Source: Apostichopus japonicus (Eukaryota; Echinodermata; Holothuroidea; Aspidochirotida; Stichopodidae). From it: a stretch of DNA of 64,000 nt. Below are positions 15,199-46,147 of the stretch, in pieces. Every line of letters starts with the position of its first letter. Within the stretch, counting starts at the first letter, position 1. The translations under genes were made by a program, and so were the position numbers. A model generated the notes under the pieces. The model was not told the origin of the DNA and made no database searches. It was given only the letters and a program-made list of their open reading frames with translations. Location: NCBI RefSeq assembly GCF_037975245.1, contig NC_092576.1, positions 35,926,611 to 35,990,610 of the forward strand, written 5' to 3'.

Positions 15199-15205
15199 AC
15201 AGTCG
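15199..15205. repeat. Target-site duplication, left copy (ACAGTCG)
   Basis: Seven bases directly outside the left inverted repeat. The same seven bases directly follow the right inverted repeat at 46,141-46,147. Depending on how the terminal base is assigned, this could be an 8-bp duplication with one mismatch. Confidence 0.7.
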
Positions 15206-15397
15206 CACCCGATTGTCCTTGTCGTCACGATATAACGTGGTTCTTGCTAATGGTGACCCACGATAGTTATCGTGCTGTGTTATAACTTCATCACACATGT
15301 TATGAATTTCACGATAACTATCGTGGACCCTTACAAACCATTCAAGGAGACTTTTGATAGTCGGATATTACAGAAAGCGACTGGGATGCTAACTCTA
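15206..15397 (+). repeat. Left terminal inverted repeat of the giant element
   Basis: 192 bp beginning CACCCGATT. It contains three versions of a near-palindrome: 15,226-15,239, CACGATAGTTATCGTG at 15,259-15,274 and CACGATAACTATCGTG at 15,310-15,325. These are good candidates for transposase-binding sites. The match to the right end stops after CTAACTCTA. Confidence 0.9.
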
Positions 15398-18320
15398 AAG
15401 TATTGACAATTTACATTTGACATTGCGAAATCTACTTACTTTTGAAGGTCTCACTGAACTAAATTGTTTGACCATCGGCGCATAAGATTCAACCCTAAGC
15501 TAGGGTTGACTGACAAAGCAGGCCAGTGTCACCGTTTCTAGAAGTGATTGTCAGTTTGTGAGCAATTTGTGATTTCGGTTTATTTTTCGCCACAGTAGTA
15601 AAAATCACATGGAGTTAATTCCAATTCTTAATATTTTTCATTATATTATTGGATGAGAAACACTCATTCAGCAGTAATGTCATCTAAAAAATTTATGTCA
15701 AACATTGCTTTGCTTTGGAAGCCATCGGGGGAGAATTGCCCTCCCACTTGCAACATTCGCCCGCTTTCAATTTATTTAATGTAATGGTCACATGGTCTAT
15801 CATAAGTGCATCATCATGTCAAATTGCTAAATACACAACCGCATTTCAGTCTATATACATTATCAATAATACTTGCAATACTTTTTTTTTATTAAGAATT
15901 CTGACAAATGGTTACCACACTTTCAATTATGAAGATTTAAAGCAGATTGACCTCATATATGTTATATAATTGCATCAAAGTCAACAGGGCACTACTTATT
16001 GTGGGCCACTCACCCATCAAGTATTGTATTGAGGAAACCAAACCCATCGATTATAATGAAGATGCCCAACAGTCCCCACCAACCATCCCCCCCCCCCTTT
16101 TGCATTCACTGATCTAGCATCCCTTTTCGAACCTTCACTCGCGATTGCTCCAAGAACAAGGAGGATGTTTCATTCATTTTCAGTTGTCTGACACCCCGCC
16201 CCCCCCCCCGAAACAAGAAAAAAATGAAAGAAGATATGACATTATGGTACTGGGTCAGTATATTTGCCTGCACAGATGGGTGGTGGTTGGGTACCATTCT
16301 TGGGATTTATACGTTTTCTTGTTACTACTCATGCCAGCTATGGTGATGCAACTTACACTGAACATTTTCAGGTCAATACCATATTTGCACCCAATACTGA
16401 CGAAACTATTCCATGTTCATTTCAGACCTTTTTCGGTGCAACCATGGACCACCACATACATATTTTCCGGGGTAATTAAACTATCATATCAGAAACGATG
16501 AAAAGAACATGATAGCAACCCACCTGACAGAAACTTTTCCCTACGTAACAGTGCTTAGGTCGGCAACGTGTCAATCATTGAGGTAGCAAGTCCCTGTCAA
16601 ATGTGACTTGATACTATGATACTTCATTGGAATCACCTAATTGTGGTGACGACAGTTTGGCTGCCAGTTAACCAACATCTTCCAATTTAATTGTTGTAAT
16701 CAGTTTTGAGTCGACTTCTTCAACAGTAAAATATCCATCCTTTCAGTATTCCTGTTGATTCAAGTCTTTGATATGACCTTCATGTGCCATATTGTTCATT
16801 AATCTTTTTCATCTACATAATCTTGTGGTGCTAATTTTATCCATGCAAATGTTTGTCAAAAGGCAGAAATAAATCATAAATAAAAACAGTTGAAGAAGTT
16901 TGACCAAAGGTAAGTGACCATATTTGAAAATCTACCATATTTGGGCTCACTGCAACATACCATTAAAAAATAGTGTTCTTAGGAATGGCAGACTTGTTTC
17001 CCAGCAGCCACATGATTTTGCTGTAGGCAACAATATTCTCACTACCAATCAGAAGAAAAGATCAGAAATGGTGAACACATTGGCACACACAGTGTAGAGA
17101 GAGCCCATATCTTCACAGAAAGAAATAGAATACCATATTAGACATGTATTGGTCATCACAAGAACTACACAAGTGCTTGATGCCAAAATCTCCTCCTATT
17201 GGGGCTGATGTATTACCATACATTGCACGATACCTGTGAGCCACATAATTGTTTCTGATTTTTTTTTTCATGTACCAGACACTAGGTGATGTCCATTCTT
17301 TAAAGGTCATCTGATGTATTGCCGGATTGGTACTTCAAGTTAATTTTCATACTCTCTGCTTTGCTGCAGAATTACATTTTTGTAACACAAGACTCACACA
17401 GAAAGAAGAAACAAAAAACAAGTATTGATGAAAGTTTAACAGATTGTTATAAGGAATACATATAAAAAGGTGATTGTCATATTGCATCATTATGATAGAC
17501 AGCTTAACTATCTCAAGTGATACATGGTAACATTACATATGTTGTGTTCATGTAGGAAGTAGAAACCTCGCTAGTAAGCTTTGAATCTATTCCTTGAATG
17601 AGCCTACCGTGTAACTCATGTGATATCAACTTAGTAGATGTTAACTCCCATAAGTCCCAAATAGCACTTTCGAGTCATACTTAACCACAACATTCTAGTG
17701 AAGATGAGCCGTGACTCCAATTCAGCAAATGGCCATATATATATGTGACCCAAAAAATGTTGAGGAATTTTCACAACATTCTAGCAAAATAATGGCTGAT
17801 ATCCAATTGCATTTGGTTACCATCATGCACAAATAATATGATGGCAATTTAAAAATTTGTTACACTGTACAGATTTGCAGTCTGGCAAGAGTCTGGCATG
17901 TACCTGTTACGGAACTTGATCATCCCGAAAGGGCAATGAAGGGGCAAGGCAAGATGAAAGCAATCACATTGACAGCTTTAACGATACAATATGAAAATTG
18001 GGCTATTTGAAAGATGGATGTCACCATAATTTCATTGGCGCACATAGATAAAAGCTCCATAGATTATATTAGGAACATGTTGTTGAAAATTTAATGTAAA
18101 ATATATGTTGCAGAGATGAATATGTTTTGTGAAGTTATCCAGTTCATTTCATCTTGGCTGTCATGATGCTGGTGACAGGGAATAGCACATATATATCTCC
18201 AACCGAAGTCACTTCAAGAAGTCAGATCCTGGTAAATAGGTTGCAAGATCCTAAAGACAGCTGTGCAATAAGGAAAACAGATACATGAACACAATGTAAA
18301 TGAAGGCAAACTATTCATAA
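15398..18320. other. Element interior, 3' side of gene B
   Basis: Holds C runs (about 16,089-16,098 and 16,199-16,209) and no repeat that I recognise. It may contain the last exons of gene B. A minus-strand stretch at 17,116-17,310 and a plus-strand stretch near 16,264-16,479 look mildly protein-like, but neither has splice phase support. Confidence 0.4.
17116..17310 (-). CDS. Possible further exon of gene B (uncertain)
   Basis: An open minus-strand stretch preceded by ACATCAG, with WYMKKKIRNNYVAHRYRAMYG and LCSSCDD. The amino-acid mix is more protein-like than the neighbouring frames. However, its frame does not join gene B exon 9 in phase, and no clean donor was found. An A10 run inside could hide an indel. 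No family recognised. Confidence 0.2.
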
Positions 18321-18325
18321 AAGCA

Positions 18326-18428
18326 GTATATATATATATATATATATATATATATATATATATATATATATATATATATATATATATATATATATATATA
18401 TATATATATATATATATATATATATATA
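18326..18428. repeat. (AT)n microsatellite
   Basis: About 100 bp of uninterrupted TA, followed by GATATT repeats and a second shorter TA/GA tract to about 18,545. Tyr/Ile frames across it are artefacts. Confidence 0.98.
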
Positions 18429-18620
18429 TTTATATAGATATTGATATTGATATTGATAACGTAATGAGAAGGAAAATCCAGAACAGTGAAAAAAAAATAT
18501 ATATATATAGATATATTTATATACATATATATAGATATATAAATAAACCAGAATGCAAATATGCATTATGATTTTGATGAAGTAATATGAGTAAAGTTTG
18601 AATGAATGGGGCATACTTAC

Positions 18621-44817: not shown

Positions 44818-44989
44818 CTGTTACATTGGTTGTCCAAATATTGACCAGTATCACAACTGCATCAAATTAATTCTGTGTAGTTTTGGGTATATACTGTAAT
44901 TCACTAATTTCTGAAAAATCTTGACCAATTATTCCAAAAAGCATGTTCAATTACCAAAATGCTACATGTTACACAAGAAAGGTCATTCA

Positions 44990-45073
44990 TCTGGGGACTT
45001 TGGTGGGATTCGAACCCACACTCCAAAATCAAGCTTTGGATTCAACCTCATGACAAAGTCTTGACCAAAAGAA
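44990..45073 (-). mobile_element. tRNA-like SINE fragment
   Basis: Minus strand has GTGGGTTCGAATCCCAC, a perfect T-arm with box B, preceded by GGTCAAGACTTTGTCATGAGG. The ends do not form an acceptor stem, so this is not called as a tRNA gene. Confidence 0.5.
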
Positions 45074-45948
45074 TGTCCAACCTGGACCACATAACATGCT
45101 TTATGTGTAATGAACAGAACTTGCTTAGACTGTATTAAATGACATAAATTAAGGTCAAAGGAATGATGATAAAGTCTTGATTAAGCTTCAGTTTTATTTT
45201 TTGTAAATGAATGAATGAAACTGTAATGATTAGCAATGTCGTCAGAGCAGCCTGCTGAACCTATACAACCTTGACCTACATGATAAGCCCTAGACATGTC
45301 ATGTTTCCCCAGATCAAATTTTGGGTAGATTCTCACTGGTATTTTCCACAAATGTCTTCAGACAGTCAGACACTTATGCCCAACAAATATGAGCCGACAA
45401 TGTACAGGCACCGTCATGTTAGGCCTATGGTCAATGCAGTTAGACCTAGGCCTAGCCTATGTCCAAACACAGCACCTACAAAGGCACCTAGGCCTAACCA
45501 TTTTTTTTTTTTTTGCAGTATGGCCTGTGAAAATAACCCTACTAAGAAATAGGCATATAGCCTAACAAGTAACACTAACTTACTGAACAATAACCATAGT
45601 AATACTTCGACTACTGTCCTAATCTCCGTTAGGTCTTTCGTGCGAGTAAGACTAAGAGTAGTTAGCCTACGAGTAGTTAGGCCTCTGTAAGGCCTTACGT
45701 TAGGCTAGTACTAGCAGTAGTAGTATCAGTTATCTCTAACAAGTAACATACGCCTATCAATTTCACGTCACGATTGCACTTACTATAGAAAAATGACGCA
45801 GATCGAAAGCGTTGATGGAGTAGGCCTACTGGTTGGACTGAATATCTAATTCATGTAACTTGTTTGATGTTGGTTGTTAACTTTATGCCTAAGCATCAAT
45901 GTACAGCGAATAGTTTTGTGTTGCGATGGAAATACTTCAGGTCGTTAT
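45074..45948. other. Element interior near right end
   Basis: Contains a T-run and many TAGGCCTA-type words. A possible minus-strand donor (ACCA|GTGAGA near 45,343) could belong to a gene D exon, but no phase-compatible exon could be built. Confidence 0.35.
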
Positions 45949-46140
45949 TAGAGTTAGAACCCCAGTCGCTTTCTGTAATATGCGACTATCAAAAGTCTCC
46001 TTGAATGGCTTGTAAGGGTCCACGATAGTTATCGTAAAATTCATAACATGTGTGATGAAGTTATAACAGCATGATAACTATCGTGGATCACCATTAGCAA
46101 GAACCACGTTAGTTATCGTGCCGACAAGTAGAATCGGGTG
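45949..46140 (-). repeat. Right terminal inverted repeat of the giant element
   Basis: 192 bp, inverted match to 15,206-15,397 with about 10 mismatches and two 2-bp gaps. Ends AATCGGGTG. Carries the same near-palindromes at about 46,021-46,035, 46,070-46,085 and 46,105-46,120. Confidence 0.9.
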
Positions 46141-46147
46141 ACAGTCG
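46141..46147. repeat. Target-site duplication, right copy (ACAGTCG)
   Basis: Seven bases immediately after the right inverted repeat, identical to 15,199-15,205. Confidence 0.7.

Follow-up and report, generated by a model that had tools for sequence, protein, structure and literature searches.

A 31-kb KDZ transposon with a GTF2I-repeat gene in the genome of Apostichopus japonicus

We analysed a 64,000-nucleotide stretch of the Apostichopus japonicus genome (the window; C16:35926611-35990610 in an assembly of 671.6 Mb and 35 contigs) in which an initial annotation had proposed a DNA transposon of about 31 kb encoding a KDZ transposase. Alignment of the window to itself with blastn recovered two inverted repeats (15206-15398 versus 46140-45948) that are 92.8% identical over 195 columns and that both begin CACCCGATT. 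These are the repeats of the initial annotation, at the same coordinates, but their length is 193 bp rather than 192 bp. The element proper spans 15206-46140 (30,935 bp), and the heptamer ACAGTCG lies directly outside both ends (15199-15205 and 46141-46147), which bears out the 7-bp target duplication that had been claimed at these exact borders. We refer to this element as copy A when it is compared with its sister copies elsewhere in the genome. The features of its borders are the following:

15199-15205, no strand: target site duplication ACAGTCG, left copy (window self-blastn)
15206-15398, plus strand: left terminal inverted repeat, 193 bp, beginning CACCCGATT (window self-blastn; 40 scored genome matches)
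15226-15240, no strand: palindrome-like motif (CACGATA..TAACGTG) in the repeat, first and imperfect copy (motif positions; 14 ends aligned)
15259-15274, no strand: palindromic motif CACGATAGTTATCGTG in the repeat, candidate transposase-binding site (motif positions)
15310-15325, no strand: second palindromic motif CACGATAACTATCGTG in the repeat, candidate transposase-binding site (motif positions)
45948-46140, minus strand: right terminal inverted repeat (window self-blastn)
46141-46147, no strand: target site duplication ACAGTCG, right copy (window self-blastn)

Two genes were recognized between the repeats. The first encodes a KDZ transposase, for which a model of 16 exon pieces with approximate edges was assembled under the guidance of predicted relatives; three of its frames match the KDZ profile PF18758 individually, one of them above the cut-off. 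The second gene (gene 2) lies downstream of the transposase on the same strand and encodes a protein with a GTF2I repeat. Its exon pieces were located by tblastn and their splice edges were set by eye.

42864-32736, minus strand: KDZ transposase gene, 16 exon pieces in order, last open frame ending at 32736 (PF18758; predicted relatives)
40984-41200, minus strand: transposase exon with similarity to the CxC cysteine cluster (CxC3, 0.0049, weak alone); a 2-bp length difference from copies B-E breaks the frame
39499-39675, minus strand: transposase exon, first part of the KDZ domain (PF18758, 3.3e-4, frame 39337-39705, alone below the cut-off)
38683-38784, minus strand: transposase exon, middle of the KDZ domain (PF18758, 3e-4, frame 38577-38831, alone below the cut-off)
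37758-37934, minus strand: transposase exon, end of the KDZ domain (PF18758, 2.6e-13, 50.6 bits, cut-off 26.6)
18217-26186, minus strand: gene 2, GTF2I-repeat protein gene, about 7 exon pieces (tblastn of predicted relatives P0080-P0083)
26186-26058, 23706-23510, 22981-22827, 22286-22206, 19988-19833, 19109-19041 and 18264-18217, minus strand: exon pieces of gene 2, approximate
19797-20069, minus strand: open frame with GTF2I-like repeat (PF02946, 1.2e-8, 35.6 bits, cut-off 27)

The identity of the transposase is supported by the NCBI prediction P0001, which probably comes from copy C. This protein matches the KDZ domain at 2e-50 and presents, ahead of it, the CxC cysteine cluster by which the KDZ superfamily is recognized (CxC1, 29.1 bits with a cut-off of 26.9; CxC2, 25.0 bits, below its cut-off of 27). 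The five best KDZ matches of the whole genome are copies A to E, and the 887-aa prediction P0004, 56% identical to the query, represents another KDZ family, probably of the same genome. For gene 2, five homologues were found, four of them from A. japonicus, and one of these four is named general transcription factor II-I repeat domain-containing protein 1-like. P0081 (41.3 bits, 1.9e-10) and P0083 (36.6 bits) pass the GTF2I cut-off, while P0080 and P0082 gave no GTF2I match; P0081 also matches solved repeats of the TFII-I family (PDB 2dzr, 2e-7, and 1q60). Host TFII-I and GTF2IRD1 factors carry several GTF2I repeats. The transposon gene shares this domain with them but differs in that one repeat was found. 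An HMG box that we thought to see by eye in the N-terminal region encoded by gene 2 was rejected, as a Pfam search with the corresponding part of P0082 gave nothing for HMG at E values up to 10, and an AlphaFold model of P0082 was discarded at a mean pLDDT (predicted local distance difference test) of 36.9. Among 30 of the 78 open reading frames (at least 70 aa, overlapping the interval), only KDZ and GTF2I were above the Pfam cut-offs, and no viral family was. A codon-position scan of the open reading frames was indecisive for the 15-32 kb part, and several kilobases of the element are without an identifiable gene.

A genome search with each end gave 68 candidate matches, of which 40 were scored and 28 were left unscored. 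Fourteen of the 40 scored matches can be joined into seven inverted pairs with spacings of 18.8-53.4 kb, as had been anticipated for a mobile element. Perfect 7-bp direct repeats, each with a different sequence, flank six of the seven pairs (A, B, C, D, E and G). With 14 of 40 matches in inverted pairs and differing perfect repeats at six of seven, the end matches are not due to chance. The initial annotation had pointed to duplications of about 8 bp among relatives of the transposase; here a short duplication is indeed present, but it measures 7 bp, not 8, at each of the six insertions where it occurs. The seven copies are:

Copy A: C16, 30.9 kb, duplication ACAGTCG
Copy B: C17, 53.4 kb, duplication CACCTGG
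Copy C: C19, 38.7 kb, duplication CTGTAGT
Copy D: C14, 22.4 kb, duplication GTGATTC
Copy E: C17, 23.6 kb, duplication GCCCGGC
Copy F: C10, 25.7 kb, no duplication found
Copy G: C9, 18.8 kb, duplication GTTCCAT

The remaining 26 scored matches comprise ten duplicated copies of three ends, four close but unpaired ends (C17:22038887, C16:1241343, C2:23704646 and C17:33854954) and 12 diverged or partial ends, seven of which were read. The duplicated copies fall at three places. Six right-hand ends with nearly identical flanks, 13-26 kb apart at C22:7185354-7281733, represent a single insertion end that was multiplied by tandem segmental duplication. Two ends on C18 (7982637 and 8130337) with reverse-complementary flanks are an inverted duplication of one end, and two on C7 (18730117 and 18838347) with one common flank are a direct duplication; both may be real or assembly duplicates. 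The two C18 ends were considered as the borders of a 148-kb element, which was rejected because they are the inverted duplication of a single end.

The 4 close and 12 diverged or partial unpaired ends would suit a view in which the 193-bp repeat is a small independent element that landed twice in inverted orientation, the 31 kb in between being ordinary host DNA. This view is already largely contradicted and we regard it as extremely improbable: the duplications flank the whole units, the interior of copy A is collinear with that of four other copies bounded by the terminal inverted repeats, and all four close unpaired ends, when read, continue inward into element-like sequence. No short form appeared either, as there are no inverted ends less than 18 kb apart among the 40 scored of 68 candidates, so the repeat did not turn up as the solo element that the initial annotation had named as grounds for refutation.

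The interiors of copies A to E are closely related. Counting gap columns as differences, copy A is collinear with B at 96.4% identity over 96.9% of its length, with C at 97.8% over 88.7%, with D at 98.2% over 70.8% and with E at 97.5% over 73.0%. The copies differ in size because of large indels. Copy B has about 13.7 kb of additional DNA relative to A, and this holds, at L009:4895-7456 on the minus strand, an 853-aa open frame with a transposase of the Transposase_21/tnp2 type (PF02992, 1.7e-13) and a DUF1258 match; the additional DNA therefore contains a nested DNA transposon. Within one element, the left and right ends are between 92.8% (A) and 97.9% (B) alike, so the insertions are not brand new. 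Conserved islands were also mapped between copies, but a divergence of a few percent was too low to separate exons.

Copies F and G make up a diverged subfamily whose ends are similar. In most aligned pieces the two agree with each other at 96-99%, whereas the interior pieces of F are 69-89% identical to A and its ends 92-94%. The ends are thus better conserved than the interior, as expected if a single transposase serves both subfamilies. F and G keep pieces of the transposase, but profile matches found neither KDZ catalytic exons nor a GTF2I repeat in them; they therefore look non-autonomous, judging from these matches.

The nested transposon of copy B raises the question of whether the 31 kb of copy A are themselves mainly the product of other transposons inserted into a smaller KDZ element. 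We consider this unlikely. The interior is common to several copies with different duplications, the two gene spans alone occupy about 18 kb, and a second KDZ family of the same genome, described below, also reaches about 25.9 kb. The element is large because the transposase has many introns, because the second gene is intron-rich as well, and because of the several kilobases that hold no identifiable gene.

Copy B additionally offers empty sites. Its two flanks joined by one CACCTGG gave 26 genome matches, two of which are B's own flanks; 11 others are 93-98% identical and cover positions 1-239 of the query, one falling a few bases short. Six of these junctions were read and all six are ungapped with a single CACCTGG. 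These paralogous junctions therefore fix the exact borders of B and its 7-bp duplication. The host sequence into which B is inserted is a repeat that, in our own reading of a translated frame, looks like a reverse-transcriptase element.

Segmental duplication of a stretch bounded by inverted repeats could also multiply such units without transposition, and the family does show this process in the six C22 ends, the two C7 ends with their common flank and the reverse-complementary C18 flanks. Yet the flanks of A, B, C, D, E and G, as printed, differ from one another, and so do their duplications, while for B the ungapped paralogous empty sites already contradict it. We give this alternative hardly any weight.

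We then considered whether gene 2 belongs to KDZ elements in general. PF18758 gave 41 genome matches, merged into 26 KDZ loci, and PF02946 gave 30 matches. A GTF2I match lies within 30 kb of 18 of the 26 KDZ loci, and 18 of the 30 GTF2I matches have a KDZ locus within that distance, where 0.07 would be expected under uniform placement. Copies D and E are two of the eight KDZ loci without a GTF2I neighbour, that part being deleted there. The pairs occur in two relative orientations. One of the families with the opposite-strand arrangement is a second giant KDZ family with copies on C9 (about 24289873-24315759, 25.9 kb) and C11 (about 28.265-28.294 Mb; L057-L060). Only the outer parts of these two copies were compared, and they are 97.5-99.6% alike. 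In the C9 copy, the KDZ and GTF2I matches fall between the borders, where a script found a 9-bp direct repeat that we read as a 7-bp duplication AATGATC plus the element's own end. Its ends, CACCCAGCTCGTCC and CACTAAGTTCGTCC (CACCC../CACTA..), have 3 mismatches in 14, and BLAST between the two ends detected no inverted terminal repeat. No duplication was found for the C11 copy.

Twelve GTF2I matches have no KDZ neighbour. Two of them lie beside A-type ends on C7. The other ten, which have neither a KDZ match nor an A-type end nearby (C12:31.46 and 10.84, C22:24.29, 25.49 and 26.32, C5:2.02, C14:3.42, C17:24.77, C8:17.95 and C16:43.42 Mb), may be degenerate elements, loci with missed KDZ exons, or host genes.

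Beyond A. japonicus, the predicted amphioxus KDZ protein P0038 presents GTF2I (2.4e-7) and chromo domains after the KDZ domain. The alignment of its module with P0081 has 26% identity over 148 columns (E 4e-7, a single comparison). BLASTP of P0082 against P0038 yielded nothing convincing (best E 0.029, in a different part). An HMG match in P0038 is weak and below the cut-off. The predicted Acipenser KDZ protein P0066 likewise ends in a chromo domain, which may point to a recurrence of chromatin-type domains among the KDZ proteins of chordates.

Gene 2 might instead be host cargo that this family captured once. GTF2I repeats are indeed known from host transcription factors, copies D, E, F and G lack the repeat, and 12 of the 30 GTF2I matches stand more than 30 kb from any KDZ locus. 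Set against this are the 18 of 26 KDZ loci with a GTF2I match nearby, in two relative orientations, and the fusion of the module to KDZ in the amphioxus prediction P0038. Capture of this kind therefore appears improbable to us. The description of the element as cargo-carrying was not substantiated either: one extra gene was found, and it is a companion of KDZ loci genome-wide, for which accessory gene is the better term.

Taken together, these results suggest, with a probability of roughly 0.93, that the segment is one copy of a giant cut-and-paste KDZ transposon family with an accessory gene. The sister copies, their duplications and the PF18758 exons uphold the proposal of a DNA transposon of about 31 kb, bounded by terminal inverted repeats, in an animal. 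The palindromic motifs within the 193-bp ends (15259-15274 and 15310-15325) are most likely the places where the KDZ transposase binds. This enzyme would excise the whole unit of about 31 kb and join it to a 7-bp staggered cut in the target, the repair of which would produce the 7-bp duplication. The second protein most likely aids transposition through binding to DNA or chromatin, either at the ends or at the target.

Several observations weigh against this interpretation. Pair F has no flanking duplication. The empty sites with a single duplication, which the initial annotation had proposed to look for, concern sister copy B rather than copy A, and they are paralogous loci of this one genome. 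Each of copies A to E has at least one lesion in the transposase: one exon is 2 bp out of frame in A, two exons have frame changes in B, four exons are absent from C, the first exon has a 1-bp change in D, and E has a stop and a frame change; part of the incomplete exon coverage in this survey is due to the borders of the fetched stretches. Exon divergence is only slightly below that of introns (1.68, 1.15, 0.74 and 1.25% versus 2.08, 1.22, 1.05 and 1.80%). In gene 2, the splice acceptor that, in our reading, precedes the GTF2I exon is lost in copy A through a changed base and kept in B and C, and an exon further upstream is 1 bp shorter in B and C. Copies D and E are without most of gene 2, the GTF2I repeat included, yet they bear duplications. 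As for the pairing, the 18 of 30 matches are not independent events, since copies of one family inherit both genes jointly. Finally, only one fused protein was found outside A. japonicus: a search with the C-terminal module of P0038 returned only P0038 itself, which may be a merged gene prediction.

Because of the lesions in the transposase and in gene 2, current activity is unproven. Between A and B-E, the transposase exons present synonymous differences (pS) of 0.0199 and nonsynonymous differences (pN) of 0.0099, and this pN/pS of 0.50 suggests, as far as sequence comparison goes, protein-level selection mixed with decay. Since D and E have duplications without most of gene 2, this gene need not be encoded in cis. 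Either the second protein, if needed, could act from another copy, or D and E may have lost gene 2 after insertion.

Large tandem arrays flank the element in the window (1-1283, 5247-7267, 9173-10532 and 55520-56261, with units of about 73, 35, 399 and 72 bp), and a 9-base tandem repeat, TGACGACGG, occupies 62852-62998 with about 16 copies and 93% matches. Rfam at gathering scores and a tRNA scan of the window returned nothing.

We compared the element with known transposons. A quick tree built from 36 KDZ proteins places P0001 beside Holothuria and two further A. japonicus proteins with a support of 100; this group next joins sea star, brittle star and sea urchin, and hydrozoans join weakly. 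Most fish and amphioxus proteins form a separate group, with Cololabis (a fish) and P0034 (A. japonicus) placed elsewhere; the tree was built without a labelled reference of each of the lineages Zisupton, Kyakuja and Dileera. With 193-bp repeats and a 7-bp duplication at six of seven pairs, the element fits the KDZ elements described so far (7-8 bp, or 4-8 bp for KDZ2/3). Among the nearest described elements are KDZ1, KDZ2 and KDZ3 of Cryptococcus, which moved in the laboratory and which share a KDZ transposase with a cysteine cluster, long inverted repeats (241, 139 and 169 bp) and short duplications (8 bp for KDZ1, 4-8 bp for KDZ2 and KDZ3); they are about 9-11 kb, in contrast to 31 kb here, and the portions of that report available to us make no mention of a GTF2I gene (PMC12810828). 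Fish Zisupton belongs to the same superfamily and has inverted repeats and a multi-exon gene, and multi-exon Zisupton genes have been described together with sea-star relatives (PMC12730594, PMC9297572). However, Zisupton and a Dileera example make 8-bp duplications, and the accessible part of that source mentions neither a GTF2I companion gene nor a 30-kb size for Zisupton (PMC12730594). We rejected Zisupton identity on the basis of the 7 bp seen in 6/6 duplication-bearing pairs. Fungal Kyakuja shares 7-bp duplications and CA..TG ends with our element, but the families described carry TET/JBP genes and, in the part of the source consulted, are reported without inverted repeats (PMC12730594); the 193-bp inverted repeats led us to reject this identity as well.

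Teratorn and Maverick/Polinton resemble the element in having inverted repeats and in being tens of kilobases long or large for DNA elements, but they carry viral genes according to the sections seen of PMC6431247, and in the 30 of 78 open reading frames scanned here no viral family exceeded its cut-off; the words Zisupton and KDZ are absent from that text. GTF2I and KDZ are likewise absent from an account of transposon-derived transcription factors (PMC10027918). Our literature search returned no description of a KDZ transposon that carries a GTF2I gene, nor of one as large as this, although most subscription papers lay outside the search and absence is unproven. As far as these sources show, the kind of element is known, and what is new is its size, its GTF2I companion gene, and the fact that a 7-bp duplication occurs together with long inverted repeats.

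This well-delimited giant KDZ element, with six duplication-bearing insertions and empty sites for one of them, joins the giant DNA elements of animals. In A. japonicus, KDZ loci are usually accompanied by a GTF2I-repeat gene, in two relative orientations. It is conceivable, though we hold it to be rather doubtful, that animal KDZ transposons were ancestrally two-gene elements (a transposase and a GTF2I-repeat protein) and that the GTF2I repeat of vertebrate TFII-I was domesticated from the transposon protein, not the reverse. The TFII-I family includes genes within the Williams syndrome deletion. Two questions can now be tested: what the accessory protein does for a transposase that handles 20-30 kb, and whether a well-known domain of vertebrate transcription factors arose from a transposon.

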